Assembly: GCA_009837355.1 (NCBI GenBank)
Contig: VXTR01000061.1
Span: forward strand, 1 to 64,000
DNA: 64,000 bases
Direction of reading: 5' to 3'
DNA from: Chloroflexota bacterium
GTDB taxonomy: Bacteria > Chloroflexota > Dehalococcoidia > Lucifugimonadales > UBA3495
Each line of letters starts with the position of its first letter. Position 1 is the first letter of the stretch. Under the pieces are notes generated by a model that ran no database searches, was not told where the DNA came from, and saw only the letters and a program-made list of their open reading frames with translations. Shown here one piece after another: positions 20,288 through 35,691 of the stretch. Made by a program: the position numbers and the translations under genes.

Positions 20288-21109
20288 ATGCCCATCGCAG
20301 CCCTGGCCGACAACCTGGAGATGTACTACGACGACGATAACTTCACCGACCCGTGGCGCGAGCCGGGGACGGTGGAAACCATCGTCCTGCACCACGGCAA
20401 CGCCAAGAGCGGACGGCTGTGGTACGCCTGGCCGCCCCTGCTGGGCCGTCAATACCGGGTAATCCGCGTGGACGCCCGCGGCTTTGGACGCTCCAGCGTG
20501 CCGGCCCCGGGCAGCTACGACTGGTCGCTGGAAGGATTCGCCGGCGATCTGCGCAACCTGCTGGACTACCTGGAGCTGGACAAGGTTCACCTCATTGGCG
20601 AGACCATCGGCGGCACCATCGCGTTGCAGTTCGCCTACCAGCACCCGGAGCGGCTGCACACCGTTGCCACCTGCACCTCGCCGTATAACTTCACCGGCGT
20701 GGCAACCTACGGCAACTATTACCGGCTGGTGGAGGAGGAAGGCGTGGAAGGCTGGGCGCGGGCCACCGGCGGCCGGCGGGTCAGCGCCGACGCCGCGCCG
20801 GCGCATCACGAGTGGTACATCCAGCAGATGGGGCAGACCTCTCGCCACGTGGTGCTGGAAACCCTGGCCTACCTGGGCACCCAGAACCTCACCGACAAGT
20901 TGCCGTCCATCCAGACGCCGGCCCTGGCCATGGTCGGCGAGCTCAGCGAGGGCGACATCCCCGACCGGGCGCAGGGACAGGCCGACCTGATGCCCAACTG
21001 CACGCTCGCCCGCATCCCCGGCGCCGGCGGCTACGTGCAGCACTCAGCGCCGGCGCAATGCGTGCTGGCCTGGCAAGAGTTCGTGGGGACGGTGCACCAA
21101 CCCGCCTAG
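20288..21109 (+). CDS. Alpha/beta hydrolase-fold protein with Thr at the nucleophile position
   Basis: 273 residues resembling 3-oxoadipate enol-lactonase/meta-cleavage hydrolases: oxyanion HHGN at 35-38, VDARGFGRSS at 61-70, nucleophile elbow G104-E-T106-I-G108. Thr replaces the usual Ser, and the usual GxGH histidine near the C-terminus is G248 (GAGGYVQH), with another His at 252. The triad is thus altered at two positions, so the protein may be a lyase, a non-catalytic binder or an enzyme with shifted residues. Follows a cupin gene. Its last four bases overlap the end of the convergent SDR gene. Confidence 0.82.
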   Translation: MPIAALADNLEMYYDDDNFTDPWREPGTVETIVLHHGNAKSGRLWYAWPPLLGRQYRVIRVDARGFGRSSVPAPGSYDWSLEGFAGDLRNLLDYLELDKVHLIGETIGGTIALQFAYQHPERLHTVATCTSPYNFTGVATYGNYYRLVEEEGVEGWARATGGRRVSADAAPAHHEWYIQQMGQTSRHVVLETLAYLGTQNLTDKLPSIQTPALAMVGELSEGDIPDRAQGQADLMPNCTLARIPGAGGYVQHSAPAQCVLAWQEFVGTVHQPA

Positions 21110-21882
21110 AACAGCGACTTGGACTGTCCGCCGTCCACGTTAATGCAGGCGCCGGTAATCAGGCCGGCCCGATCCGAGGCCAGGAACGCCACCGTTTCGC
21201 CGATGGGTTCGGGCCAGCCGAACTTGCCCATGGGCAGGTTGCGGTCGATGAACTCCGCCACCACTTCCGGCGTGTTGTTCTGCTGGAAACGGTCCCAGCT
21301 GCTGCCGGGGAAGTCGATGCTGCCGGGCGCGACGCAGTTGACCAGCACGCCGGATTGCGCCAACTGCAATGCCAGGTGCTTGGAGAAGGCAATCATGCCG
21401 GCCTTGCCCGTCATGTAGTCCACGGAGCCGCCGTGCTCGCGCCCGTAGATGGACGCGATGTTGATGACCCGGCCCCAGCCCTGGGCCTGCATGTGGGGCA
21501 GGGCCAGCTTGGTCATCCGCACCGCTGAAATCAGGTTGACTTCCAGTCCCTCCAAGAACAGCTCCATGGGGGTTTCGTCAAAGAGGACGGAGCCGCGCCG
21601 GCCGCCCACGTTGTTCACCAGGATGTCGGGCGCGCCCAGGGTGTCGGTGGTTTCCTGGAGGAACCGGGCGGCGTCGGCGTCATTAGTAACGTCGGCCCGG
21701 CTGCCGCTGGCCTTGATGCCCAAGCCGGACAGTTCGGCTGCCGTTGCGTTCACCTGGTCGCCGTCTCGCCCGCAGATGGCCACGGCGCAACCCTCCCGTC
21801 CCAGCGCCAGCGCGCACTGGCGGCCCAAGCCGCGGCTGCCGCCGGTAATCATCGCTACCTTCCCGTTCAGGCTCAAATCCAT
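21106..21882 (-). CDS. Short-chain dehydrogenase/reductase
   Basis: 258 residues of classical SDR. Cofactor motif TGGSRGLG (13-20), NNVGG (90-94), and the catalytic S144, Y156 and K160 (YMTGK). R/D preferences after beta-2 (CGRDGDQ) suggest NADP(H). FabG-like in general appearance, but probably a catabolic alcohol or ketone dehydrogenase given its position at the end of the transporter/amidohydrolase cluster, 75 bases after the second amidohydrolase. Substrate unknown. Confidence 0.87.
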   Translation of the reverse strand: MDLSLNGKVAMITGGSRGLGRQCALALGREGCAVAICGRDGDQVNATAAELSGLGIKASGSRADVTNDADAARFLQETTDTLGAPDILVNNVGGRRGSVLFDETPMELFLEGLEVNLISAVRMTKLALPHMQAQGWGRVINIASIYGREHGGSVDYMTGKAGMIAFSKHLALQLAQSGVLVNCVAPGSIDFPGSSWDRFQQNNTPEVVAEFIDRNLPMGKFGWPEPIGETVAFLASDRAGLITGACINVDGGQSKSLF

Positions 21883-21957
21883 GGGATTGCCTCCCTATCG
21901 CACAATTGGAATGCAGGGATTATAACGGGTTGGCAGCGGCGCCGGTAAGCGGCTGGT

Positions 21958-22914
21958 TTAGAGGCTCAACAGCTGCTCCAGGTTCTTCCACAGGATGGCC
22001 TCTTTTTCGTCCTGGGTGAGAGACGGCAGGCCCATGACCCAGCCCACCGGCCAGTCAATCATCATGTCGGCCGGCCAGTCGGTGCCCAGCACCACCCGGT
22101 CGATTCCCACCGTGTCAATAAGCATACGCAAGGCCGGCTCGCTGTGGGTGAGGCAGTCGTAGTAGAAGCGGTTCAGGTACTCGCTGGGCGGCTGGGTGAT
22201 GTTGACCCGGGCCTCCCGGCGCACCAGCCAGCCCCGGTCCATGCGGCCGGCGCCGAAGCAAGTGTAGCCGCCGCCGTGGGCCAGACACACTTTCAGGTCG
22301 GGGCACTGGTCCATGACGCCGCCGAAGACGAAGGAGGCGAAGGTAACGGCGCGCTCGGCCAGGTTGCCGATGGTGTTGGGTAGGTGATAGCGGTCGATGC
22401 GCGGGGCGACCATGGTGGGATTGGCCTGGTGGATCAGCAGCACGGCGCCCATCCGCTCCGCCGCCTGCCAGAAGGGCAGGAATGCCGGGTCGTCGTAGGT
22501 GCGCCCGTTCACATGGTCGTTAATCATCGCGCCCTTGAATCCGAGGGTGGCAACGGCCCGCTCCAGCTCGGCGATGGCTGACCGAACGTCCTGCATGGGC
22601 AGGGTGGCCAGGCCGGCCAGTCGCTGCGGGTAGTCCATCGTCATCTGGTGCACTTCGTTGTTGCAGTCGGTGGCGATGGCGACGGTGGTATCCACGTCCT
22701 GGTCGTACTTGTAGAAGGCCACGTTGGTGGACACGACCTGCACGTCCACGCCGATGGAGTCCATGTCGGCGATGCGTTGCTCAGGTGTCCAGGCGTTGCG
22801 GGGGTTGAACAGCTCGCCCTCGGCGGCGGTCATGCCGTGCCAAGTGCGGCCCTGCAATACCTCCCGCTGGAAGCATTGGGGCGTGGAATGGGCGTGAATG
22901 TCAATGGCTCGCAT
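21958..22914 (-). CDS. Amidohydrolase family protein (ACMSD/Amidohydro_2 type), copy 2
   Basis: 318 residues. Metal ligands H7 and H9 in DIHAH open the TIM barrel; LIHQ, CLAHGGG and GTDWPADM supply the later His and Asp positions. This is the pattern of 2-amino-3-carboxymuconate-semialdehyde decarboxylase relatives, which decarboxylate or hydrolyse aromatic-derived acids. It is a tandem duplicate of the gene just upstream (22933-23889): same length, shared blocks such as RYHLPNTIGNL, FASFVFGGVMD and LTQDEKEAILWKNLE. Both probably handle related substrates delivered by the adjacent ABC transporter. Confidence 0.87.
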   Translation of the reverse strand: MRAIDIHAHSTPQCFQREVLQGRTWHGMTAAEGELFNPRNAWTPEQRIADMDSIGVDVQVVSTNVAFYKYDQDVDTTVAIATDCNNEVHQMTMDYPQRLAGLATLPMQDVRSAIAELERAVATLGFKGAMINDHVNGRTYDDPAFLPFWQAAERMGAVLLIHQANPTMVAPRIDRYHLPNTIGNLAERAVTFASFVFGGVMDQCPDLKVCLAHGGGYTCFGAGRMDRGWLVRREARVNITQPPSEYLNRFYYDCLTHSEPALRMLIDTVGIDRVVLGTDWPADMMIDWPVGWVMGLPSLTQDEKEAILWKNLEQLLSL

Positions 22915-22932
22915 ATTTTGCGTCTCTCCGTG

Positions 22933-23889
22933 CTAGATGTTCAGCAGTTTTTCCAGGTTCTTCCACAGGATGGCCTCTTTTTCGTCCTGGGTCAGGCTTT
23001 CCAGGCCCAGCACCCAGGAAACGGGCTGGTCGATGGCCATGTCCGCCGGCCAGTCGGTGCCGAAGACCACCCGGTCGATGCCCACGCTGTCAATCACCAT
23101 GCGCAGGGCCGCCTCGCTGTGGGTGAGGCAATCGTAGTAGAAGCGGTCCAGGTAGGTACTGGGCGGGTGCGTGATGTTGACCCGCGCTTCGGAGCGCACC
23201 TGCCAGCCCCGATCCATGCGCCCGACGCCGAAGCAGGTGTAGCCGCCGGCGTGGGCCAGGCAGATTTTGAGGTCGGGGCATTTGTCCATCACGCCGCCGA
23301 ACACGAAGGACGCGAAGGTAACTGCCCGGTCAACCAGGTTGCCGATGGTGTTAGGGAGGTGGTAGCGGTTGGAGCGGGGCGTAACCAGCGTGTCGCCGCC
23401 CTGCTGGTGGATGAACAATATCGCGCCCATCTGCTCGGCGGCCTGCCAGAGCGGCATCAGGCTGGGGTCGTCGTAGGGCAGGCCGTTGGCGGTGTCGTTG
23501 ATCATCGCGCCGACCAGGCCCAACTGCGTTACGGCGTACTCCAACTCGTTGATGGCCGCGCTCACGTCCTGCATGGGGATTTGAGCGAATCCCTTGAACC
23601 GTTCGGGGTAGTCCACGGTCATCTGGTGGACTTCCTCGTTGCATTCCCGGTGCATCTCGGAGATGACCTGGGCGTCGCGGTCGTAGAAGTAGAAGGCCGC
23701 GCCGGTGGAAACGACCTGGACGTCAACGCCCAGGGAGTTCATGTCGTCGATGCGCTGTTGAGGTGTCCAGACGTTGCGGGGCGCGACGAACATATCGCCG
23801 GGGTTCACGCCATGCCAGGAGTGTCCGGCGGCCATGGCATGCAAAAAGCACTGGGGCGTCAGGTGAGCGTGGATATCGATACTTCGCAC
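22933..23889 (-). CDS. Amidohydrolase family protein (ACMSD/Amidohydro_2 type), copy 1
   Basis: 318 residues from a GTG with GGAGGG just upstream. DIHAH (H7, H9), LFIHQQGG, CLAHAGG and GTDWPADM give a complete metal site as in its tandem copy. Differences cluster in the segment after the first strand (about 15-45) and around the GGDTLVTPRSN region (about 170-185), places that form the substrate pocket in this fold, so the two copies may have divergent specificities. Lies 68 bases after the DppC-type permease. Confidence 0.87.
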   Translation of the reverse strand: MRSIDIHAHLTPQCFLHAMAAGHSWHGVNPGDMFVAPRNVWTPQQRIDDMNSLGVDVQVVSTGAAFYFYDRDAQVISEMHRECNEEVHQMTVDYPERFKGFAQIPMQDVSAAINELEYAVTQLGLVGAMINDTANGLPYDDPSLMPLWQAAEQMGAILFIHQQGGDTLVTPRSNRYHLPNTIGNLVDRAVTFASFVFGGVMDKCPDLKICLAHAGGYTCFGVGRMDRGWQVRSEARVNITHPPSTYLDRFYYDCLTHSEAALRMVIDSVGIDRVVFGTDWPADMAIDQPVSWVLGLESLTQDEKEAILWKNLEKLLNI

Positions 23890-23957
23890 AATTCCCTCCG
23901 GCGGAATTCCGATTCTCCAGAAACCCGGGTTTGTATTTTAAGATGGGGCCGGCATGA

Positions 23958-24869
23958 TCAGCGCCCCCGCTGCCGGGGGTCAAGGATGTCGCGCAGGGCG
24001 TCGCCGGCAAAGGCGAAGCCCAGCACGGTTACGCTGATGGCCAGCCCGGGAAAGACGAGAATCCAGGGCGCGGTGGACAGATACTGCGCCGCCTGGCCGG
24101 TGAGCATCCGGCCCCACGAAGGCGTCGGTTCCGAGATACCCAGGCCGAGGAAGCTGAGGCCGGCCTCGGTGAGGATGGCGGTGCCGAACATTGAGGACAT
24201 GATTATCAGGAAGGGGGCCATGGTGTTGGGCGCGATGTGCCGCAGAATAATTCTCATGTCCGAAGAGCCGATGGCCCTGGCCGCCATTACGTAGTCGGTT
24301 TCCCGCAGCGAAATGGTTGAGGAGCGAATGACGCGCACCCCGCGAGGCAGAATCGTCGCGCCGATGGCCAGGATGATGTTGGGAATGGAGTTGCCCAGCG
24401 CCGCCACGAAAACCAGCGCCAGAATCAGGTCGGGCAGCGACATCCACATGTCGACCAGGCGCTGGATGACGGCATCAGTCTTACCCATGAAGTAGCCGGA
24501 AAACAGCCCAATCACCGCGCCCACTCCCGTGCCGGCCAGCACGGAAAAGAACCCGACAATCAGGGAAATCCGCGCCCCGTACACCACCCGGGAGAAAACG
24601 TCCCGGCCGAACTGGTCGGTGCCGAACAGTTGGGTCGAGTTGGGCGCGGAGCGCACCGCTTCGTAGTTCTGCGCCTGGTAGTCAAAGGGCGCGATGGCCG
24701 GCGCGAAAATGGCCACTACCGTAATGGTCAGCACCATCAGCAGGCCGGCGGTACCCAGCGGCTTGGTGCGCAGATGGTGCAGCGTCATCCGGGCGAAGGA
24801 CATCCGACGCCGTTCCAGCGTCACGTCCGGCGTCTCATCCCGTTGGCGGGCGATGTTGGGCAGTGTCAT
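23958..24869 (-). CDS. ABC transporter permease, dipeptide/oligopeptide type (DppC/OppC)
   Basis: 303 residues, about six membrane helices. It opens with the OppC N-terminal segment (TKPLGTAGLLMVLTITVVAIF) and GTDQFGRDVFSRVVYGARISL, the DppC hallmark. The ATPase-docking EAA loop reads AIGSSDMRIILRHIAPN, followed by AILTEAGLSFLGLGI. It forms the channel with the DppB-type subunit encoded ten bases upstream. The two ATPases normally found in such operons (DppD, DppF) are not here; amidohydrolases follow instead. Confidence 0.93.
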   Translation of the reverse strand: MTLPNIARQRDETPDVTLERRRMSFARMTLHHLRTKPLGTAGLLMVLTITVVAIFAPAIAPFDYQAQNYEAVRSAPNSTQLFGTDQFGRDVFSRVVYGARISLIVGFFSVLAGTGVGAVIGLFSGYFMGKTDAVIQRLVDMWMSLPDLILALVFVAALGNSIPNIILAIGATILPRGVRVIRSSTISLRETDYVMAARAIGSSDMRIILRHIAPNTMAPFLIIMSSMFGTAILTEAGLSFLGLGISEPTPSWGRMLTGQAAQYLSTAPWILVFPGLAISVTVLGFAFAGDALRDILDPRQRGR

Positions 24870-24879
24870 TCCATGCCGC

Positions 24880-25842
24880 CTAGGTGTAGCGTATCCGCGG
24901 GTCGAGCCAAGCGTACATCAAGTCCACCAAGAGGTTGGCTATCAACACCACACAGGCGATGAACATCACTATCGCCTGGATCACCGGGAAGTCCCGGGAC
25001 CCCACAGCCTGAATGAAGAGGTTGCCCAGGCCGGGGATGTTGAACACCTGCTCAATGACCACCTGACCGCCCATCAGGAACACGACTTCAAAGCCGGCCA
25101 GGGTAACGACCGGCAGCAGGGCGTTGCGGAGAACGTGAATGAACAGGATGCGGCTACGGTACAGGCCCTTGGCCTCGGCGGTGCGCACGTAGTCCTCCCG
25201 CAGGGCCTCCAGCACCGACGAACGGGTCATCCGCAGCATACCCGCCGAGCTGCGCGCGCCCACCACCATTGCAGGGAAGATGAGTATCATCAGGTTGTCC
25301 CACGGGTCTTCCCACAAGTTGGCGTATGAAATGGGCGGAATCCAGTCGAACATCGTCAGCAGGCCCACTATCAGCAGCAGGCCGATCCAGAAGTTGGGCA
25401 TTGACTCGAAAATCATGCTGACGAACCGCAGCACGTAGTCGAAGAAAGTGTCCTGGCGCACCGCGGCGATGACGCCACCCGGAATGGCGATGATGGAGGC
25501 AATCAGCACCGCCATTAAGCCCAGCTGCGCGCTGACCGCGATGCGGGGCAGCATCCGCTCCAGCACCGGCTGGCGGTTAATCCAGGAGATGCCCAAATCG
25601 CCGCGCAGCAATTTGCCCGCCCACGTTACGTACTGCATATGCAGCGGCTTGTCCAACCCCAACTGGTTGCGGACCCGGGCGAAGTCTTCCTCCGTGGCCA
25701 CCAGCGCCCGGTCACGTCCTCCCAGCAGCAGCGTAGTGGCGTAATCCCCCGGGATTACGTGGAGCATCAAGAAGATGAACACCGACACGCCGAAGGCGGT
25801 GGGAATAAACAGCGCCATGCGGCGCAGGATGTAAGCGCGCAT
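24880..25842 (-). CDS. ABC transporter permease, dipeptide/oligopeptide type (DppB/OppB)
   Basis: 320 residues. Family start YILRRMALFIPTAFGVSVFIFLMLHVIPGD, six membrane helices, and the C-terminal block VIEQVFNIPGLGNLFIQAV with the EAA loop AEAKGLYRSRILFIHVLRNALLP. Partner of the DppC-type permease. The gene is separated from the binding-protein gene by an 82-base gap holding a long stem-loop, a layout that usually gives more binding protein than permease. Confidence 0.94.
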   Translation of the reverse strand: MRAYILRRMALFIPTAFGVSVFIFLMLHVIPGDYATTLLLGGRDRALVATEEDFARVRNQLGLDKPLHMQYVTWAGKLLRGDLGISWINRQPVLERMLPRIAVSAQLGLMAVLIASIIAIPGGVIAAVRQDTFFDYVLRFVSMIFESMPNFWIGLLLIVGLLTMFDWIPPISYANLWEDPWDNLMILIFPAMVVGARSSAGMLRMTRSSVLEALREDYVRTAEAKGLYRSRILFIHVLRNALLPVVTLAGFEVVFLMGGQVVIEQVFNIPGLGNLFIQAVGSRDFPVIQAIVMFIACVVLIANLLVDLMYAWLDPRIRYT

Positions 25843-25860
25843 TGTTTGCCTTCATCCCTG

Positions 25861-25899
25861 GCACGCCGCCGGAGCGAATGATGATTCGCTCCGGCGTGC
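25861..25899. repeat. Long stem-loop between binding-protein and permease genes
   Basis: Arms 25861-25879 and 25884-25899 pair over 16 bp (GCACGCC, GGAGCGAAT) with a three-base bulge and a GATG loop. There is no T tract on the minus strand, so it is more likely an mRNA-stabilising or partial-termination element than a full terminator. Confidence 0.7.
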
Positions 25900-25924
25900 G
25901 GCGATGGCGTATGGCCGGTGAAGC

Positions 25925-27751
25925 CTACAGGCCGCCCGGAACTCCGGTGGTCTGACCGCTCTTGTCGGCGTCGTCCGCGTGGGCCGGGTCAATCCACAGG
26001 TGTTCCCAGCGCAGGAACGAGCTGGAAGGCTGCGGATGGTGGAAGTAGCCACGCACCTCCGGCCAGAAGGCCACGGCCTCCTGTTCCCAGTACAGGGGGA
26101 ACTTCCAGTACTGTTCCATGGCGTAGAGCTGCAGCTCGTCGGAAATGGCCTTGCGCTGCGCCTGGTCGGTAGTGGAGGACGCTTGGTCCAGCAGGTCTTC
26201 GGCCTTCTGGTCGCAATCCAGGCCCGGCGTCCAATGGTTGTTGGGGGAAACGCAGCGGAAGTAGAAGCCCATGCCGAGGGCCGGGTCGTCGGCCGGCATG
26301 GTGTCGTTGCGCGGCAGGATGTCGCCCCAGGAACCGTCCGACGTCTGCTTGCGGTAGGCTACGGTCTCCACCAGGTCAAAGTCCGTCTGCACTCCCAGCA
26401 GGCGCAGCTGTTCCTGGAAGAAGGTGGCGCGAGCCTGCACCTGGGCGTCGGCTTCGACGGTGAACTTGTAGATCTTGTCGAAGTCAAAGCCCTCTTCTTC
26501 CAGTATGGCCCTGGCCTCGGCGCGGCGGGCGTCCCAGTCGCCATCTTCCGGCGGGCACCAGCCCGGCACGGCGCAGCCCTGGGACTCGTCGAGGCTCCAG
26601 GGGCCGCCCGGCGCCATCAGGAACCCGGCGGAGCCATGCCCGTCCTGCAGGATGCTGATGCCGGTGTCCCGGTCGATGCCCATCATAATGGCCTGGCGGA
26701 CGCGCACGTTGTCAAAGGGGACGTTGCGCGCGTTGAGCCACAGGGAATGATGCCCCCGCGTGGCCCGGATGACGGTGCTGATTTGCGGATGCTCGACGTA
26801 GGCGTCGTATTGCCCGAAGTTGCGCACCCAGTGCCAATCGGTCTGGTGGGCCAACATCACCGACTGCTGGATGGACTCGTCCAGGATGCCGAATACCACC
26901 ACGCGGTCAACGTAGGGCAGGCCGTTCTTGAAGTAGTTGTCGTTCTTGACGAAGTTCTGCTCGTCAACGCCGACGCTCTGGCCTTCTTCCCAGCGGAAGG
27001 GGCCGGTACCGACGGACACGTCCTGGAACATGGCCTCCTCGCCGCCGGCCTCGAACCAGGCCTTGTTGAACATCAGGGCGGCCCGGTCGGTGAAAGCCAG
27101 CAGCGCGGTGGCGCTGGGCTCGGTGAAGCGCAGTTCCAGCGTGGAGTCGTCCGTGCACGAGGAAGCGCCGATGTCTAGGAAGCTCAGCTTGCCGCGCATT
27201 TCGCTGGCGGTGATGCCGTTGCCCGTCACCATGGTCTCCAGGGTGAACCGAGCGTCCTCGCAGGTGAAGGCGTCTCCGTTGTGCCACGTGATGCCATCGT
27301 GGAAGTACAGCGTGAGACCCTGGCCGTCATCGTGGTTGGTCCAGCCGGCGGCCAGGTCGGGGATGATTTTCCCGTCGTCGTAGGGATCGGTCTCCACCAG
27401 GTTGTTGTGGGTGGGAGTCCGATAGCGCACCGTTACGCCGGAGAAAGCGCCCCAGGCGTTGGCATGCTCCAGCGGGTCCTCGTAGTTGATGCGCAGCGTG
27501 CCGCCGTACACCGGGTCGCCATAATAGGCGGTGGGCGGGTTCCAGTATTCCGACATGGCCGGCGCGACTTCTGCTGCAGACGGGACCGCCATGGCTCCGT
27601 CCGAAGGGGCAACCACCTGGGCCGGCGCGGTGGTGGGATCGGCGGGAGCGGCAGCCGGCTCCTCGGTAGTCCCGCAGGCGGCCAGCAGCAGCGAAGCGAT
27701 CGCCAAAACGAGCAGCGCTACAACGCTGCAGGACTTCACACTACTTAGCAT
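25925..27751 (-). CDS. ABC transporter substrate-binding lipoprotein, dipeptide/oligopeptide type (SBP_bac_5)
   Basis: 608 residues. The lipoprotein signal ends LLLAAC with C26, followed by an Ala/Pro-rich tether. The mature part has the family order: YGGTLRINYEDP, a LVETDPYDDGKIIPDLAAGWTNHDDGQGLTLY-like block, then FHDGITWHNGDAFTCEDARFT. The C-terminal half carries VRQAIMMGIDR and a long final lobe. Such proteins bind peptides, nickel, opines or glycosides, so the ligand is open. The ATG at 27751 has GGAGG ten bases upstream; an in-frame codon at 27799 looks like leader. It heads an operon with two permeases, two amidohydrolases and an SDR. Confidence 0.93.
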   Translation of the reverse strand: MLSSVKSCSVVALLVLAIASLLLAACGTTEEPAAAPADPTTAPAQVVAPSDGAMAVPSAAEVAPAMSEYWNPPTAYYGDPVYGGTLRINYEDPLEHANAWGAFSGVTVRYRTPTHNNLVETDPYDDGKIIPDLAAGWTNHDDGQGLTLYFHDGITWHNGDAFTCEDARFTLETMVTGNGITASEMRGKLSFLDIGASSCTDDSTLELRFTEPSATALLAFTDRAALMFNKAWFEAGGEEAMFQDVSVGTGPFRWEEGQSVGVDEQNFVKNDNYFKNGLPYVDRVVVFGILDESIQQSVMLAHQTDWHWVRNFGQYDAYVEHPQISTVIRATRGHHSLWLNARNVPFDNVRVRQAIMMGIDRDTGISILQDGHGSAGFLMAPGGPWSLDESQGCAVPGWCPPEDGDWDARRAEARAILEEEGFDFDKIYKFTVEADAQVQARATFFQEQLRLLGVQTDFDLVETVAYRKQTSDGSWGDILPRNDTMPADDPALGMGFYFRCVSPNNHWTPGLDCDQKAEDLLDQASSTTDQAQRKAISDELQLYAMEQYWKFPLYWEQEAVAFWPEVRGYFHHPQPSSSFLRWEHLWIDPAHADDADKSGQTTGVPGGL

Positions 27752-27854
27752 TTTATCCAGTCCTCCATGTATTGCGGCTGGCGCGCATTTTATATTCACC
27801 CCGTTGCACTGTCAATTTGATGTTTCGCAGAATATATCGTCATTTATAACGTAT

Positions 27855-27874
27855 TTCGTAATTTGTATTACGAA
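27855..27874. promoter_or_regulatory. Palindromic operator-like site in the divergent intergenic region
   Basis: TTCGTAAT and ATTACGAA flank TTGT, a perfect 8-bp palindrome in an AT-rich stretch (27752-27961, about 210 bases, no gene) between the divergent ABC operon and methylase gene. It is well placed for a dimeric repressor. Confidence 0.45.
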
Positions 27875-27905
27875 TTGCGGCAACGCCGTTGTGTGCGCCG
27901 AGTAA

Positions 27906-27935
27906 TTGAAAGGCCGGCTGTCAACAGGCTATGAT
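27906..27935 (+). promoter_or_regulatory. Sigma-70-like promoter for the methylase gene
   Basis: TTGAAA (27906-27911), an 18-base spacer and TATGAT (27930-27935), 27 bases before the ATG. Confidence 0.5.
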
Positions 27936-27961
27936 GTTCCGAACCATAGGGATTACCGACC

Positions 27962-29776
27962 ATGCCCAGCTCACGACTATACGAACCCGCCGATCTGCCC
28001 GGCCTGGGCCGCAACTACGTCATCCGCGAGGAAGGGGTCAACACGTTCCTGGCCGAACTCCTCCGCGATCAGGGCATCAACGCCCTGGCCGAACGGCGCG
28101 ACCGCAACATAACCCCCGACGTCCGCGTCACCCTCAAGACCGGCGACACCGTCCTGCTGGAATGCAAGTGGCTCAACGGCGCCGGCCAGTTGCAAAACCA
28201 GCTGGACACCCGCCTGCAGCAGTTCCCCGACGCGTTGGGCGTCATCGGCGTCCTTTACCCGGAAGAGCTGAAATACCCACTGGACACCCGCGGGGGGCTT
28301 GAGGCCTCCGGCGACCTGGAATGGTGGCTCCACGGTTCTCGGGGCCAACGCGTCGCCGACCGCCGCTCCCGCTTCGGCACGCCCACCGACATCGCCGACC
28401 ACCTGCGCGTATTGCCCCTTGAACTGGAGGGCACCGACCGCGTGGTCGCCGCCGCCGCCGTCATCGAGTATGCCGTGGAGCAATCGGCCCAGAAGCTCGC
28501 CACCCACGCCAGGACTGCCCACCGGGTCAGGAGCGTCGTCGCGCAAACCGACCAGGAAAACGACCGCGCCAAGGCCTTGCGCATCGGCTGCCTGGTGGTG
28601 TTCAACGCCCTGGCTTTCCACCTCCGGCTGGCCGAATCCCACGACGACGTGGTGGGCGTTACCGAAGCGTGGCGGGATGGCATCCCCGGCCTGTTCCGCG
28701 CCTGGCAGTACATCTGCGACCACATCGACTACGTGCCCGTTTTCGACCTCGCCGCCACCATCCTGGACATCCTGATTGACGCTCCGACGGACTGGCACGC
28801 TCCCGTCCTGAACCCGCTGTTGAAGGCGGTTGACGACACCCGCCACCTGGAAGGACACGACCTGTCCGGCCGGCTCTTCCACACCCTGCTCACCGATGCC
28901 AAGTTCACCGGCGCCTACTACACCTCCGTGCCGGCGGCCACGCTGCTCACCCGGCTGGTGTTCCACGACTGGCCAGACGGCGTGGACTGGAGCGACCACG
29001 AGTTTCCAGCGTCGCTCAACGTGGCAGACATCGCCTGCGGCACCGGCACGCTGCTGATGGCCGTGGCCGCCGAGGCCGAACGCCGCCACACCGAGGCCGG
29101 CGGCCGGAACGCCCCGGCGCTGCACAAGGCCATGGTGGAACAGGCCCTGCACGGCTACGACGTGCAACTCTCCGCCGTGCACTTCGCCGCCACCAGCCTG
29201 GCCATGCTCAACCCCGACATCCAGTTTGACCGCATCAACCTCTACGTGATGCCGCTGGGCGCCGACGGCGACGACGTATCGCTGGGTTCGCTGGACTTCC
29301 TGGGGGAGTCCCAAGCCGCCGTCCAGTTCGCCCTGTCTCCCACCGGCATGGGGGTCAGCAGCCGGACCATCCGCGACGCTGGCCGGGTCTATAGCGGCGG
29401 CTCCCGGGGCGCGCAGCAGGAGGAAATCGCCACGCTGCCCGACCTGGACCTGGCGATTATGAACCCGCCCTTCACCCGTTCCGTGGGCGGCAACCTGCTC
29501 TTCGGCAGCCTGCCCGCCGACGAACGCCGCAAATTGCAGAACGAGCTTTCCCGCCGCCTCAAGTCAAGACAGACCCGGCTGGCGACGGCAACGGCCGGCC
29601 TGGGCGCGGCTTTCGTGGCCGCGGCGTCGCCCAAGCTGCGCCCCGGCGAGGGACGCCTGGCCCTGGTGCTGCCGGCCACCGTCTGCACCGGGCCGTCCTG
29701 GCAGCAGACGCGCTCCCTTATTGAGCGGGACTTCAACCTGGACATGGTCATCGTCTCCCACGACCCGCAGCGCTGA
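27962..29776 (+). CDS. PD-(D/E)xK nuclease plus N6-adenine DNA methylase, N-terminal part ended by in-frame TGA
   Basis: 604 residues before a TGA that interrupts a longer gene. N-terminal nuclease-like domain: P52-D53 and E67-C-K69 (TPD...LLECKW). Then a helical region with a methylase entry motif FTGAYYTSVPAATLL, SAM-binding motif I ADIACGTGTLL (355-365) and catalytic motif IV NPPF starting at N501. Type IIG or phage-defence methylases combine such parts. After codon 604 the frame continues without shift through 30856, with sequence (NFSDSTDLSEALLIATR) that belongs to the same domain; the TGA stands where such proteins carry Trp. The target-recognition part is thus cut off. Probably a recent nonsense mutation or a sequence error. 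Confidence 0.85.
   Translation: MPSSRLYEPADLPGLGRNYVIREEGVNTFLAELLRDQGINALAERRDRNITPDVRVTLKTGDTVLLECKWLNGAGQLQNQLDTRLQQFPDALGVIGVLYPEELKYPLDTRGGLEASGDLEWWLHGSRGQRVADRRSRFGTPTDIADHLRVLPLELEGTDRVVAAAAVIEYAVEQSAQKLATHARTAHRVRSVVAQTDQENDRAKALRIGCLVVFNALAFHLRLAESHDDVVGVTEAWRDGIPGLFRAWQYICDHIDYVPVFDLAATILDILIDAPTDWHAPVLNPLLKAVDDTRHLEGHDLSGRLFHTLLTDAKFTGAYYTSVPAATLLTRLVFHDWPDGVDWSDHEFPASLNVADIACGTGTLLMAVAAEAERRHTEAGGRNAPALHKAMVEQALHGYDVQLSAVHFAATSLAMLNPDIQFDRINLYVMPLGADGDDVSLGSLDFLGESQAAVQFALSPTGMGVSSRTIRDAGRVYSGGSRGAQQEEIATLPDLDLAIMNPPFTRSVGGNLLFGSLPADERRKLQNELSRRLKSRQTRLATATAGLGAAFVAAASPKLRPGEGRLALVLPATVCTGPSWQQTRSLIERDFNLDMVIVSHDPQR
29774..29776 (+). other. In-frame TGA breaking the methylase/nuclease gene
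   Basis: Codon 605 of a 964-codon reading frame. A single TGG-to-TGA change at a site where related methylases read HDPxRWNFS would explain it. Other genes in the window use TGA as a normal stop, so general recoding to Trp is unlikely. Confidence 0.8.
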
Positions 29777-30856
29777 AACTTTTCCGACAGCACCGACCTG
29801 TCGGAAGCGCTGCTGATTGCCACCCGGCGGCGGACGGCCAACGGCAACGGCGATGACGACGATTCCGCCACGGAACACCGGACCACGTTCGTCAGCCTGT
29901 GGGAGAACCCCGACGGCGTGCTGGACGCGCACCGTACCGCCCAGGCCATCGCCGACACCACGCCGGCCAACCTGGAATCCGCCGGCGCCGCGCTGGTGGA
30001 GGTGGACGGCCGGCACGTGGGCGAGCTGGTATCCATCCCCGAATCCAAGCTCGCGGGCAAGAAATGGGCCGGCGTGCAGTTCGCCCGCGCCGACCTGACC
30101 CGCAGCGCGCTGCGCCTGCTGGACGACGGCGAGGTCTGGGTTCCCGGAGAGGCAACCGTGGGGCGAGTGCCGCTCTGCCCGCTGGCCGAGTTGGGCGAAA
30201 TCGGCCCCGACCGGCGGCGTCTGGTGGACGGATTCGAGCGCACTACCTCTCAAACCGCCTACCCGATGGTGGAAGGGCACGATACTGAGCAGCGCAAGTC
30301 CCTGGTGTGCATCCCCGACGCTTATCTGTCCCCGTTGGTTACGCCCAAAGGCGGGCAGCGTCCGGGATATGGCGAACACCTGTGGCAGCAAGCCGGCCGG
30401 CTGCTCGTCGCCGAAAGGCTTTGGTTGGAAACCAACCGGGTCATCGCCATGCGAACCCACACCCGCGTGCTGTCCAACGTATGGTGGCCCGTCAAGATTG
30501 AGGAAATCGCCCACGAAAAGGCGCTGGCCGTGTGGCTCAACTCCGGCCTGGGCCTGCTGACCCTGTTGGCCCAGCGCACGAGCACCAGAGGCGGATGGGT
30601 CGGCATGAAGAAAGCCGACCTGGAACAGCTGCCCGTGCTGGACGTGCGCGCCATCACCCCGCAACAGTTGCAGGCTATGTCTCAGCTGTTCGACGACGTG
30701 GCGGAGGAAGAGTTTGAGCGTCTGCCGGCCATGGCCGACTGCGTGGCCCGCCGCCGCCTGGATGATGGGCTGACGGCGATATTGGGGCTGCCGGATTTGG
30801 ATGGGCTGCGGCGGCTGCTGGCATCGGAGCCGGTGGTGACGAACCGGGGGTTGTAG
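29777..30856 (+). pseudogene. C-terminal part of the interrupted methylase (target-recognition region)
   Basis: Same frame as the upstream half. It contains the end of the methylase domain (LSEALLIATRR) and a long region with GRVPLCPLAELGEIGPDRR and ERLWLETNRVIAMRTHTRVLSNVWWPV, which looks like the target-recognition/C-terminal part of IIG-type enzymes. Internal starts, for example 29918, could allow translation as a separate 312-residue protein, but no strong ribosome site is seen. Without the first half it lacks SAM-binding and catalytic motifs. Codon use is still regular after the TGA, so the break looks recent. Confidence 0.7.
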
Positions 30857-30877
30857 GGGGTGTTGCTGCTTGCAGGT

Positions 30878-30883
30878 TATAAT
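30878..30883 (+). promoter_or_regulatory. Possible -10 (TATAAT) before the small Cys-rich gene
   Basis: Perfect TATAAT 83 bases before the ATG at 30966; -35 not convincing. Confidence 0.3.
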
Positions 30884-30965
30884 GGTAGCAGGCAACGCCT
30901 GTTTGAGCCGCCTGCTGGCAAAAGGAGCCGTTCTTCGTCGCCGCCACTGAAGATTAGAGGGAACC

Positions 30966-31304
30966 ATGGCAACAACGCATTACATGGGCAATAGGATCAC
31001 CCCACGGGGGCAGCCAAACTGCGGCCTGTACACCCCCGGCGACCCCATACTTGGAACTGACGGCGACATCGGCCAGGTGGACTGCCTGATATGCCTTCGG
31101 TCGGAAATCGAGAGGCTAAGGACGACGGGGTTCGCTCCGCTTCCCGACGACTTCGACCTGTCCCAATATGGGTTTGGCGATGACGACGAAAACCCCAATG
31201 GTTCCGAGCAAACACCGCCACCCGCACAGCATGACTGCACGTGTGGAATTCCCACGAACAGAGCCCGCAGGTTGTGCACCGAACGCGACTGCCCTTGGAA
31301 GTAA
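30966..31304 (+). CDS. Small Cys-rich hypothetical protein
   Basis: 112 residues, no family recognised. Cysteines occur as CLIC (about 40-43) and as a C-terminal cluster CTCG, LCTERDC, so a zinc-binding structure is possible. The middle is acidic (LPDDFDLSQYGFGDDDEN). AGAGGG lies five bases before the ATG. It follows the broken methylase gene and precedes the small antitoxin-like gene on the same strand. No function is proposed. Confidence 0.55.
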   Translation: MATTHYMGNRITPRGQPNCGLYTPGDPILGTDGDIGQVDCLICLRSEIERLRTTGFAPLPDDFDLSQYGFGDDDENPNGSEQTPPPAQHDCTCGIPTNRARRLCTERDCPWK

Positions 31305-31358
31305 GCCCAGACCGCCCTTTGTGGAGACACGAAAGGCAGCCCAACCGGGAGGAAAACC

Positions 31359-31550
31359 ATGAACCAACTGCTGCAAGATGCCTTCAATCGAGCCGCTGAC
31401 CTGCCTCCCGAAGAACAGGACCGGTTCGCCAAGTTCCTGCTGGCCGAGCTGGAGGCTGACCAACAATGGAACCAACTGTTCGACCGGCCGGAATCGGATG
31501 AGCTGCTGAGCCCCCTCGCCAACGAAACCCTGGCCGACCCGGCCGCTTGA
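31359..31550 (+). CDS. Small antitoxin-like protein
   Basis: 63 residues. MNQLLQDAFNRAADLPPEEQ and the FLLAELEADQQWNQLF segment resemble small helical proteins (LPxxEQ...LLxELexexxW) that are commonly found directly upstream of RelE, ParE or PIN toxins. A GGGAGG lies seven bases before the ATG. The next gene is a NYN (PIN-like) nuclease, about 100 bases away behind its own promoter and hairpin, so an antitoxin role is conceivable but unproven. Confidence 0.6.
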   Translation: MNQLLQDAFNRAADLPPEEQDRFAKFLLAELEADQQWNQLFDRPESDELLSPLANETLADPAA

Positions 31551-31575
31551 CAGCAAATCCAAAGCTGCGTACACT
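31547..31575 (+). promoter_or_regulatory. Strong sigma-70 promoter upstream of the NYN gene
   Basis: TTGACA (31547-31552), exactly 17 bases, TACACT (31570-31575). The -35 overlaps the stop codon of the preceding small gene. Transcription should begin near 31582, ten bases before a terminator-like hairpin. Confidence 0.7.
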
Positions 31576-31591
31576 ATACATTGATCTGCCC

Positions 31592-31643
31592 CCCGTCCGC
31601 TGGACCTGGCTTAGTCCAGAACTCCCCGGACGGGTGTTTTTTT
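31592..31643 (+). terminator. Nested hairpin with T7 tract directly before the NYN start codon (terminator or attenuator)
   Basis: Outer stem CCCGTCCG (31592-31599) with CGGACGGG (31627-31634); inner stem CTGGAC (31600-31605) with GTCCAG (31614-31619); then TG and seven Ts (31637-31643). The NYN ATG follows at 31648, and its only Shine-Dalgarno-like bases (GGACGGG) lie in the 3' arm. The element could stop transcripts from the promoter at 31547 after about 60 nt and also hide the ribosome site. Confidence 0.75.
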
Positions 31644-31647
31644 GCCT

Positions 31648-32235
31648 ATGGACACCATAGTTTTCATCGACGGTCAGAACCTTTACCATCTGGCCAGGTC
31701 GTCTTGGCTGGTCAACCCTTCTGACAAGTCCTCCCCTTACACTTGGGCCAGTTACGATGTTGCAAAGCTGGCAAACGCATTGACTGCCAGAGAGCCGGGC
31801 CGCACCTTGACCGAAGTCCGCTTCTACACTGGCGTCCCTGATGAATTCAGTAGGCCGTCATTGCATGGCTTCTGGACAAACAAAATCAGGTACTTGCGAA
31901 ACGGCGGGATTTACGTTTATCAGGGCAAGGTCAACGCCGGCGGTGAAAAAGGCGTCGACGTCAGCCTTGCCCTGGATTTGGTGCAGGCTACCCACGAACG
32001 CCGCTTCGACGTGGCTATCATCGTTAGCCAGGACTCCGACTTTGGCCCGGCGGTCGGCTTGGCCAAGCAGATTGCCGCGTCGCAAAACCGAACGCTTAAG
32101 TTTGAATCCGCTTTCCCCTTCCATCGGGGTAGAGTTTCACCCCGCGGCGTCCCCGGCACAACCTGGGTTCATATCGACCAGGCCATGTACGACGCCTGCT
32201 TCGACCCCAGGGATTATCGCCCGGCAAGGCGGTGA
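31648..32235 (+). CDS. NYN-domain (LabA/DUF88, PIN-like) predicted ribonuclease
   Basis: 195 residues. The acidic active site is complete: D8 in VFIDGQNLY, D104 in KGVDVSLALD, and D129/D131 in SQDSDFGPAV. The order matches NYN/LabA proteins, which are PIN-fold nucleases acting on RNA. ATG 31648 is used, since the first strand begins at residue 2; a TTG at 31642 is inside the T tract. It is preceded by a strong promoter and a terminator-like hairpin, so expression seems tightly limited. A toxin-like or RNA-processing role is possible. Followed by a 7-bp GC hairpin at 32252. Confidence 0.87.
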   Translation: MDTIVFIDGQNLYHLARSSWLVNPSDKSSPYTWASYDVAKLANALTAREPGRTLTEVRFYTGVPDEFSRPSLHGFWTNKIRYLRNGGIYVYQGKVNAGGEKGVDVSLALDLVQATHERRFDVAIIVSQDSDFGPAVGLAKQIAASQNRTLKFESAFPFHRGRVSPRGVPGTTWVHIDQAMYDACFDPRDYRPARR

Positions 32236-32251
32236 GCCGGGCTAGGCCATG

Positions 32252-32268
32252 GGCCGGCGATGCCGGCC
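32252..32268. repeat. GC-rich hairpin after the NYN gene
   Basis: GGCCGGC-GAT-GCCGGCC, 7-bp perfect stem with a 3-base loop. No T tract, so a weak candidate for 3' end formation. Confidence 0.4.
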
Positions 32269-32341
32269 GGTTGCGGCAGCCTGACCGACGCTATATCCTT
32301 GCCGCTATTGCGGTACGCGATTCCACATCGGCAGGGTTGGC

Positions 32342-33136
32342 ATGAGACTTGACGGCAAAGTAGCGATTGTAACCGGGGGCAGCCGCGGCATCGGGCGCGC
32401 CATCTGCCTGGGCCTGGGGGAGGCCGGCGCCAGCGTGGTCGTAACCTCCCGCACCGAGGTTGACACGTCGGCCGGCACCGAGTACGCCCGGTACGGCTCC
32501 GGCGACATCCACGACACGGCGGCGCAAATCACCGCTGCCGGTGGCTCCGCGCTGCCCGTACGCTGCGACATGGCCGAGGTCAAGGACATTCAAGACCTGG
32601 TAACGGCCACGCTGGACCGCTTCGGTCGCATCGACGTTCTCGTTTGCAACGCCGGCATGGACTGCGAGTCGCCGGTGGTGGACCTGGACGTTGAGCTGCT
32701 GGACCAATGCCTGGCGGTCAACGTGCGCGGCCCGCTGCTGCTGTGCAAGTACGCGCTGCCGTCCATGATTGCCCGGGGCGAGGGCGGTTCCATCTACTGC
32801 GTTACCTCCGGCGCCGCCCGCAGCTACCGGGAGGGTCGCGTCGGCTATTCCATGAGCAAGGCGGCGTTGGAGCGGATGTTTTTCAGCCTGGCCGAGGAGG
32901 TCCGGCCCCACAATATCGCCGTCAACGTCTTCGAACCCGGGCGGGTGGACACCTGGATGAACCGCCGGGGCGACTGGCCGGGAACCGCCCACATACCCAT
33001 GGTGCAGCCCGACCTCCTGGCCGCGCCGGGCGTCTGGCTGGCCGGACAGACCGCCGAAACCCTGACCGGCGAACGGGTGGCCAGGGCCGAGTTCGAGGTG
33101 ACCTGGGGGCCGCTGGAATCGGAACCGTCGCCATGA
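32342..33136 (+). CDS. Short-chain dehydrogenase/reductase
   Basis: 264 residues. NAD(P) motif TGGSRGIG (11-18), CNAG at 102-105, catalytic S156, Y169 and K173 (YSMSK). The loop after beta-2 (TSRTEVDTSAGTEYARYGSGD) is longer than usual. The C-terminal part (FEPGRVDTWMNRRGDWPG) differs from FabG proteins, so it is likely a catabolic SDR. Unlike its neighbours on the left it has no link to defence functions. Preceded by a 106-base gap, followed by an LLM enzyme with its own extended -10. Confidence 0.86.
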   Translation: MRLDGKVAIVTGGSRGIGRAICLGLGEAGASVVVTSRTEVDTSAGTEYARYGSGDIHDTAAQITAAGGSALPVRCDMAEVKDIQDLVTATLDRFGRIDVLVCNAGMDCESPVVDLDVELLDQCLAVNVRGPLLLCKYALPSMIARGEGGSIYCVTSGAARSYREGRVGYSMSKAALERMFFSLAEEVRPHNIAVNVFEPGRVDTWMNRRGDWPGTAHIPMVQPDLLAAPGVWLAGQTAETLTGERVARAEFEVTWGPLESEPSP

Positions 33137-33143
33137 CCCGCCG

Positions 33144-33152
33144 TGCTATAAT
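33144..33152 (+). promoter_or_regulatory. Extended -10 promoter for the LLM gene
   Basis: TGC-TATAAT is a perfect extended -10, 45 bases before the ATG at 33197. Two TGCGCA palindromes follow in the leader. Confidence 0.55.
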
Positions 33153-33196
33153 GCTGCGCAATTTTATGCGCAAATCAACATCGGAGAATTGACGGG

Positions 33197-34366
33197 ATGA
33201 TTAAGCGGTTTTCGGTACTGTACGTGGGGCAGATTGACCTGGACAACGTGGGTTCGGACGGCACGCCCGCCGACCAGCGCCGCTACACCAACGAGCAGCT
33301 GGCGCAGGCTTACGACCACGCCCAGGCTTTGGCCCAGCACATGGACGAGCGTGGCTTCTACTGCATGTGGATGGCCGAGCACCACTTCCAGCACGAAGGC
33401 TACGAGTGCATCCCCAACCTCATCCTGATGGGCGTGCACCTGGCCGGCCAGACCAAGAACCTGAAGTTCGGGCAGGCTTTCAACATCATCCCGATGTGGC
33501 ATCCCCTGCGCATCGCCGAGGACTTCGCCATGGCCGACATTCTCACCGGCGGGCGCATGATTTTCGGCGTGGGGCGCGGCTACCACTCCCGCGAGGTGGA
33601 AACCTTCGGCTCTCCCGTCATCGACAATGACGCCAACCGCGAGCTGTTCCTGGAGCAGATGGAGGTCATCCTCAAAGCCTTCAACGAGGACTCCTGGAGC
33701 CACCAGGGCAAGTACTACACCATCCCGCCGGAAGTGCCCTATCGCGGCTACGACCTCAAGGAAATCACCATGGTGCCCCGGCCGGCTAACCGGCCCGTGG
33801 AAATGTGGCAACCCATCGCCAGCGGCCGCACGCTGAACTACATCGCCGAGCGCGGCATCAAGGCCATGGTCGCCCTCACCGGCGAGCTGTATGCCGAGCA
33901 GATGATTACCCAGTACCACGACGCGGCCACCGCCGCCGGCCGGGACCTGCCGCTGGGCGGGGACATGGCCCTGGGCTTCGGCTTCTACATCGCCGACAGC
34001 CGGGAGGAGGCCATCGAGCGGGTGCGCCCCTTCCACGACGAACGCTACAAGTGGTTCGCGCCCTTCGGCTTCGTGCGCTACACCGACGAGCAGGGACGGC
34101 CGTGGGGCACTCCCGGCGCGCCCACCCGGGTGCCGCGCATCGAGGACGGCGTTGACCAGAAAGCCTGGTTCTGCGGAAGTCCCGCCGACTTTATCGAGTT
34201 CCTGCATGAAATCGAGACCAAGTACCCCGGGCTGGAGGACATCGTGCTGCAATGGCCCGAAGGTATGCCCTGGAGCGAATTCAAGGAACAGCTGTCCATC
34301 TTCTCGTCCGAGGTGATGCCGGCCTTCACCGGGCGGGAGGCGGCGCTGACCGCGGCGGACAATTAG
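33197..34366 (+). CDS. LLM-class flavin-dependent oxidoreductase
   Basis: 389 residues, bacterial-luciferase-like. MDERGFYCMWMAEHHFQHEGYE is the signature of the luciferase alpha-type N-terminus, with IPMWHPLRIAEDFAMADILTGGRMIFGVGRGYHSREVE carrying the flavin-phosphate region. It is longer than the LLM proteins at 16820 and 47658 because of inserts around 165-200 and 285-320. GGAG lies upstream of the ATG. Probably a monooxygenase using reduced FMN; the substrate is unknown. Confidence 0.88.
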   Translation: MIKRFSVLYVGQIDLDNVGSDGTPADQRRYTNEQLAQAYDHAQALAQHMDERGFYCMWMAEHHFQHEGYECIPNLILMGVHLAGQTKNLKFGQAFNIIPMWHPLRIAEDFAMADILTGGRMIFGVGRGYHSREVETFGSPVIDNDANRELFLEQMEVILKAFNEDSWSHQGKYYTIPPEVPYRGYDLKEITMVPRPANRPVEMWQPIASGRTLNYIAERGIKAMVALTGELYAEQMITQYHDAATAAGRDLPLGGDMALGFGFYIADSREEAIERVRPFHDERYKWFAPFGFVRYTDEQGRPWGTPGAPTRVPRIEDGVDQKAWFCGSPADFIEFLHEIETKYPGLEDIVLQWPEGMPWSEFKEQLSIFSSEVMPAFTGREAALTAADN

Positions 34367-34398
34367 AGGCGCCGCGGCGCGCGGAACGGAGCAGCGGC

Positions 34399-35691
34399 TT
34401 GGCCAACCCTGAGCACGTCGCCGTCGCCAAGGGGAGAAGCTTTGCCATCGCCCGCTGGCGTGCCCGTTCCTTCCAGGAGCGAGCGCATCTTGACCTGTCG
34501 GGCGCCTACCTCAGCGGCGTGCGGATGCCGGGTGTTGACCTCTCCCACGACAACCTGGACCAGATTGACCTTACCTCCGCCGACCTGCGCCGGGGAGTCT
34601 TCAACGGCGCCCAGTTGCGTCAGGCGTACCTGACGCGCTGCAACCTGAATCGGGCCAGCTTTGAGGACTCCCACGCGTCGGGAGCGGTTTTCACCCGTTC
34701 CGACCTGAGCGGCGGCAACCTCAACAACGCCGACCTGCGGGGCGCCGACCTTTCCAACTGCGACCTGGCCTTCGCCACGCTGGTGGGCGCGAACCTGGCC
34801 GGCGCCGACCTCACCGAGGCCGACCTGACCATGGCCGACCTCACCGACGCCAACCTCAGCGGCGCGCGGCTCAACGCCGCCTGCCTGGACATCGCCAACC
34901 TGACGCGCTGCGACCTGCGTCGTGCGTCATTGGTGCGCACTCGTCTTGACCGCACGCTTCTGCACGACGGCGTGGTGGACATGACGCTGTTCGCCGACTG
35001 CGACCTGGGCGTGGCCATCGGGCTGGAAACCCTTCGGCACCAGGGGCCCAGCATCGTGGGGGCGGACACCCTGGCGCGCTCCGGCGGAACCATACCGCAG
35101 GTATTCCTGCAATCGGCGGGGGTGCCGCCCGACTTCATCGATTTCGTCAGCCGGAACGGGAGCGCCGAGCAGCCGGACGCGCCAATCCCCCACCGGAGGG
35201 TTCTGCTCATTGGGTCGGTTATGGATAGCGCCGTGGTCGGCTGGCTGGAGGGCGAACTGCGCCAGCGCGGCGTGCAGTGCTGGAGCCTGCTGGCCGACGA
35301 CGAGGAGACGATTTACAACGCCCAGGTTTTCCCGCCCATGAGCCGCTTCCGCAACTACGACCGGGTGGCGCTGCTCTGCTCCCTTGACGCCTTGGAAAGC
35401 CCGGCGTGCTGGCGTCTCTACCAGGAGATCATGCAGCGGCAGGCCGAGTCGGCGGCCCGGCGGGTTCACGTGGCGGCGATAACGCTGGACGACTGCCTGG
35501 AAAACGACACCGACGAGCTGTATCAGAGACTGCACGACGGCCCCTCGGCCCGGCTGCGTCCCCGCAAAGACCGCAAGGGCGGCTACCGCCGGGACGTGCC
35601 CGGTGTGCTGGAAATCCTGACCGCCGAGTGGCAGGCGGTGTCCCAGTCGGACAACTGGCCCGACGCGCCGGAATCAGTGGGGATGCTGTGA
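34399..35691 (+). CDS. Pentapeptide-repeat protein with C-terminal TIR domain
   Basis: 430 residues from TTG 34399 (GGAG seven bases upstream; the open frame reaches back into the LLM gene but that part is a shadow). Residues about 30-205 are A(D/N)LxX pentapeptide repeats forming a right-handed beta-helix. A connector (210-255: GLETLRHQGPSIVGADTLARSG..., FLQSAGVPPDFIDF) is the one found in pentapeptide-TIR proteins. Residues 266-375 are TIR-like: RRVLLIGSVMDSAVVGWLEGEL, GVQCW, RVALLCSLDALESPACWRLYQE with E343 near the catalytic Glu of NADase TIR domains. TIR proteins cleave NAD+ in antiphage immunity; that role is inference here. Its 3' end overlaps the next convergent gene by 18 bases. Confidence 0.82.
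   Translation: MANPEHVAVAKGRSFAIARWRARSFQERAHLDLSGAYLSGVRMPGVDLSHDNLDQIDLTSADLRRGVFNGAQLRQAYLTRCNLNRASFEDSHASGAVFTRSDLSGGNLNNADLRGADLSNCDLAFATLVGANLAGADLTEADLTMADLTDANLSGARLNAACLDIANLTRCDLRRASLVRTRLDRTLLHDGVVDMTLFADCDLGVAIGLETLRHQGPSIVGADTLARSGGTIPQVFLQSAGVPPDFIDFVSRNGSAEQPDAPIPHRRVLLIGSVMDSAVVGWLEGELRQRGVQCWSLLADDEETIYNAQVFPPMSRFRNYDRVALLCSLDALESPACWRLYQEIMQRQAESAARRVHVAAITLDDCLENDTDELYQRLHDGPSARLRPRKDRKGGYRRDVPGVLEILTAEWQAVSQSDNWPDAPESVGML

Follow-up and report, generated by a model that had tools for sequence, protein, structure and literature searches.

Type IIG restriction-modification enzymes carry a cleavage domain, mostly of the PD-(D/E)xK type, at the N-terminus, followed by a methylase and a specificity domain in the same chain, and one of them, Eco57I, is 997 aa long (PMC3874165). 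In Cj0031 of Campylobacter jejuni, a single-chain type IIG enzyme, an interruption is predicted to end methylation and restriction together (PMC4889913). The window studied here, the whole 64-kb stretch of DNA that was analysed, is contig C9 of a draft genome of 89 contigs (3.25 Mb, 96.6% complete). It contains a gene for a protein of ~960 aa that has the domain layout of BpuSI, Eco57I, MmeI and DrdV in common; compared with these type IIG enzymes, the window protein is remote in sequence, its allele is truncated, and its cleavage and methylation are predicted activities. The likeness to Cj0031 lies in the single chain whose interruption is predicted to abolish both activities, whereas Cj0031 switches through a poly-G tract and the window gene carries a point nonsense change.

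Architecture of the interrupted enzyme

Translation of positions 27962-30856 on the forward strand gave 604 residues, a TGA at codon 605, a further 359 residues and then a TAG. This was the sole coding-like frame split by one stop in the 64-kb window, apart from gene boundaries and antisense shadows. The features of the gene are as follows.

27906-27935, forward strand: promoter-like site TTGAAA-18-TATGAT just 5' of the enzyme gene (consensus match only)
27962-29776, forward strand: truncated product of 604 aa up to the TGA, with the PD-(D/E)xK domain, a helical connector and most of the methylase
28001-28402, forward strand: predicted N-terminal PD-(D/E)xK nuclease domain, residues 14-147 (AF2 model, fold matches, conserved motif)
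29774-29776, forward strand: in-frame TGA, codon 605 (TGG in 19/19 orthologs)
29777-30856, forward strand: rest of the frame past the TGA, 359 aa, with the last methylase strands and the target-recognition region

The full frame encodes, in a single chain, an N-terminal PD-(D/E)xK domain, a helical connector, a gamma-class adenine methylase and a C-terminal target-recognition region. Both motif I (DIACGTG, residues 356-362) and motif IV (NPPF, residues 501-504) of the methylase lie upstream of the TGA. In the nuclease domain, the PD at 52-53 and [E/D]67-x-K69 were conserved in the 13 orthologs having this region, with PD and K invariant. The AF2 model of residues 14-147 (pLDDT 89.8) showed a core in the order alpha-beta-beta-beta-alpha-beta, and structure comparison paired this domain with Hjc resolvases (Z 8.6) and also with the N-terminal domain of BpuSI (Z 7.0), a type IIG enzyme. 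These scores are modest, but the motif residues fit the fold. The model of the whole protein (pLDDT 80, pTM 0.80) had BpuSI as its best Foldseek match (E 1.2e-17), and residues ~297-946 matched CamA (Z 27.4) and M.BseCI (Z 23.9), as well as BpuSI, MmeI, M.TaqI and PglX. With profiles, no Pfam or NCBIfam cut-off was reached by the window protein, and PADLOC gave weak partial methylase matches alone; the Eco57I profile was matched by 13 of the 32 members of the family alignment.

The resemblance to CamA and M.BseCI covers the methylase and target-recognition region, which superposes over ~450-490 residues (Z 24-27), whereas the aligned chains of these ~580-aa proteins begin at the methylase and lack an equivalent of the nuclease domain seen at the N-terminus of the window protein. 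PglX/BrxX of BREX is similar in the methylase core and the C-terminal region (Z 19-22); by contrast, the window protein carries a nuclease domain at its N-terminus and is encoded on its own, and none of the slot genes read is BREX-like. An identity as BREX PglX was rejected, as the neighbours read are a transporter, an amidohydrolase, an NYN protein, an SDR and a luciferase-like protein, and the cargo in relatives consists of TIR, Uma2, PaREP1 and DUF2283 proteins. Membership in BREX or MADS, for which the weak partial methylase matches were the sole indication, was likewise rejected.

Thus an N-terminal PD-(D/E)xK cleavage domain and a gamma-class methylase followed by a C-terminal target-recognition domain are found in one chain, as in type IIG enzymes, whereas an intact full-length chain under the standard code is missing here, where the TGA breaks it, and is held by relatives. 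From its motifs and modelled fold, the protein is predicted to be a single-chain type IIG-like restriction-modification enzyme, and the unbroken window enzyme presumably restricted DNA. These results bear out much of the initial annotation, which had read a frame open except for the TGA at codon 605, a gene for a PD-(D/E)xK nuclease and adenine methylase, and conserved P52-D53, E67-x-K69 and NPPF motifs. Its placing of the target-recognition region downstream of the TGA also holds, with the last methylase strands located there as well.

Codon 605 and selection on both halves

Relatives were gathered from the contig collection and 147 related genomes, which gave 19 distinct orthologs with 34-87% identity (the duplicate pairs L013/L004, L014/L003 and L019/L008 were counted once). 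The nearest gene-bearing relatives are metagenome-assembled genomes of Chloroflexota/Dehalococcoidia. All 19 distinct orthologs have TGG at the equivalent of codon 605, and TGA occurs only in the window genome, as expected from the earlier proposal that the stop had replaced a Trp. Identity is similar on the two sides of the TGA (87% upstream and 86% downstream for L004; 80% and 85% for L003), and every close relative found extends across the stop, which agrees with the earlier view that both halves belong to one protein. The initial annotation had also asked for a comparison with orthologs, in which genes split at the same point would speak against a broken gene; none of the 19 is split there, and a naturally split gene was rejected. 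Homologs at greater distance, from plasmids and viral contigs, have Pro, Ile, Met or another residue at this position, with no Cys in those read, and the position is therefore unlikely to be catalytic. Two plasmids likewise carry the homolog as a single intact gene with no obvious partner. On the aligned sequences, Trp is the ancestral state at codon 605 within the clade, and the TGA is private to this genome.

Two orthologs, L009 (7780-8080) and L010 (2889-3121), contain in-frame insertions of ~80 residues at the linker around residue 630, shortly beyond the site of the TGA. The insertions are encoded by repeat-like DNA (RHSGESRNPE-type peptide), and the frame remains open through the repeats.

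Against the two nearest orthologs (L004 and L003), dN/dS was 0.15-0.16 upstream of the TGA and 0.12-0.14 downstream. Purifying selection on both sides, together with the absence of any other such split in the window, argues that the frame is not a chance effect. We then looked for relaxed selection in the downstream half on the window branch, and none was detected: this branch carries 9.5 nonsynonymous and 30.5 synonymous changes there, compared with 10.7 and 41.3 on the branch of the intact L004 (Fisher p 0.80). A downstream half left untranslated and neutral for longer than ~5-15% of the branch to the nearest relative should have gathered more replacements, and this fraction is an upper bound on the untranslated period. 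The lack of decay downstream indicates that the stop is recent, is read through or is an error.

A variable slot and its cargo

The enzyme gene lies in a slot between an SDR gene and a luciferase-like gene that is variable within the genus and spans 21106-34366 in the window. The borders and the genes beside the enzyme gene are as follows.

21106-21882, reverse strand: SDR gene bounding the slot on the left in relatives (91-93% identity)
30966-31304, forward strand: 112-aa protein of unknown family beside the enzyme gene
31642-32235, forward strand: NYN-domain (LabA-like) nuclease gene (Pfam PF01936, E 7.5e-16; PADLOC candidate HEC-09, E 2.5e-11)
33197-34366, forward strand: luciferase-like monooxygenase gene bounding the slot on the right (11 of 13 congeners, 88-94% identity)

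In the window, the slot holds the enzyme with an oligopeptide transporter/amidohydrolase cluster, the 112-aa protein, the NYN nuclease and an extra SDR. The slot is empty in G003 and G011 (130-157 bp) and measures 0.45-1.06 kb in G001, G002, G005 and G007, where it contains small genes such as DUF2283 in G005 and Uma2 in G002. This type IIG-like enzyme occupies it in three congeners, with a CAP12/Pycsar-type TIR protein and a Uma2-like protein in G004 and G012 and with a PaREP1 protein in G006. The NYN gene (31642-32235) has its own promoter-like site at 31547-31575. Beside the slot, a gene at 34252-35691 that is conserved in this position in the genus encodes a pentapeptide-repeat protein whose C-terminal part matches TIR_2 weakly. 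The slot is possibly a small defence hot spot.

The enzyme gene is broken elsewhere as well. In G004, a sister species with the ortholog in the same slot (L022, G004:C50), a 1-nt deletion was found at codon ~573, 32 codons before the TGA position, and a more distant copy in G054 has a frameshift near codon 242. The independent breakage in G004 indicates that the gene is dispensable. These results indicate that the enzyme is dispensable cargo of the variable slot and has been lost repeatedly.

Origin and consequence of the stop

The TGA is probably the outcome of a recent, lineage-specific inactivation of the type IIG-like enzyme by an ordinary nonsense mutation, which was the best of the three options offered by the initial annotation. 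In the proposed course of events, a single-base change would recently have turned the Trp codon into TGA. Translation would then stop after 604 residues. The resulting product would comprise the nuclease domain and an incomplete methylase fold, would lack the target-recognition region and would be able neither to find its DNA site nor to methylate it. This truncation should abolish both activities, which would go together because both reside on one chain; such a joint loss would not be toxic, in line with the argument made for Cj0031 (PMC4889913), so that the allele can persist until it decays. Re-initiation at the GTG at 29918 (GGAG ~12 nt upstream) was considered and found no support, and its product would lack the last methylase strands. 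The case is one of ordinary pseudogenisation, clean but not unusual.

The stop might instead stem from an error in assembly or consensus, or from a minority strain allele captured in the assembly, in which case most of the population would have TGG and a working enzyme. The draft state of the genome (89 contigs), a difference of one base (29776) and a C-terminal half free of decay would all fit this account, which we nevertheless regard as unlikely. Among ~125 full-length rpoB frames (at least 1,240 codons each) of related genomes, no in-frame stop was found, which puts errors at less than ~2e-5 per codon, although rpoB is a single conserved gene and the rate may understate errors in strain-variable regions. 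Real bacterial pseudogenes are commoner than this, and the independent frameshifts in G004 and G054 fit a dispensable gene; the background rate of broken genes was judged here from rpoB and the window only. Given the rpoB frames, an assembly error is less likely than a real mutation, and we infer that the mutation exists in the living population. Retained selection downstream would also be expected if the stop were leaky, with tRNATrp reading UGA-A part of the time as Trp, perhaps aided by a hairpin, and making a little full-length enzyme. The base after the TGA is A, and a passage in PMC5289835, citing Engelberg-Kulka 1981, describes UGA followed by A as a context especially liable to be misread by tRNATrp in E. 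coli; misreading would restore exactly the ancestral residue. The hairpin in question begins shortly after the stop.

29781-29807, forward strand: 10-bp hairpin that begins 4 nt after the UGA, with the loop CACCGAC 14 nt from the UGA

The 10-bp stem was rare among synonymous recodings (2.6%), but 13.7% of them folded as well as the native sequence, and TGG orthologs have similar hairpin potential. One of these, L018, forms a comparable 10-bp hairpin, which suggests that the hairpin is partly a result of the conserved peptide FSDSTDLSE. It is not conserved across orthologs and its fold energy is not unusual, and a conserved RNA element was rejected; Rfam gave no match at the TGA, with sub-threshold chance matches elsewhere in the gene. 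Furthermore, the TGA is present in one genome only, so there is no conserved combination of stop and hairpin, RF2 is present, the one tRNA-Trp(CCA) found is ordinary, and recency accounts equally well for the retained selection. Leaky reading of the stop is thus improbable, and a regulated or tolerated leak, aided by the hairpin, through which the restriction-modification enzyme would be kept at trace level, is slightly more improbable still.

Phase-variable loss, raised in the initial annotation, did not hold up. Poly-G tracts can make type IIG genes phase-variable, as in Campylobacter Cj0031 (PMC4889913), but the lesion here is a substitution at a site with no tandem repeat or homopolymer, and the only run of at least 6 in the gene, a G6 at 28292, is in frame and lies well away from the lesion; phase-variable switching of the enzyme is accordingly very improbable. 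The standard code applies in this genome, because RF2 is present, TGA is used as a stop and tRNA-Trp(CCA) is ordinary. A code in which UGA means Trp was rejected on the RF2 gene, which scored over its cut-off, and on several window genes that terminate in TGA; the tRNA-Trp(CCA) has a 5-bp anticodon stem. Insertion of selenocysteine at the UGA would have the required machinery at hand, as the genome encodes SelD (L063, G000:C39:7224-8144), tRNA-Sec(UCA) (L042, G000:C56:433-525) and SelB (L050, G000:C16:31533-33389), the gene for SelD carries its own in-frame TGA, and a stable hairpin follows the UGA of the enzyme gene. The bacterial SECIS model calls for a spacing of 16-37 nt and for a G among the first two loop nucleotides; some bacterial SECIS elements lie outside it (PMC13188914). 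The hairpin at 29781-29807 departs from two of the four SECIS criteria, with a spacing of 14 nt and a loop whose first two nucleotides include no G, whereas the SelD hairpin of the same genome (spacing 27 nt, loop GGC) conforms to them. No homolog with Cys was seen at the position, which is Trp in 19 and Pro, Ile, Met or another non-Cys residue in the distant ones, and selenocysteine can be set aside as having next to no chance of being correct.

Recent inactivation by a nonsense mutation thus remains the preferred explanation, and the locus offers a worked case of a genome that has selenocysteine machinery but in which this in-frame TGA does not mark a selenoprotein. The window gene illustrates that single-chain restriction-modification enzymes may be lost without self-harm. 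It also provides a view of defence-gene turnover in uncultured Chloroflexota, in which one slot holds the enzyme intact in two species and broken differently in two others.
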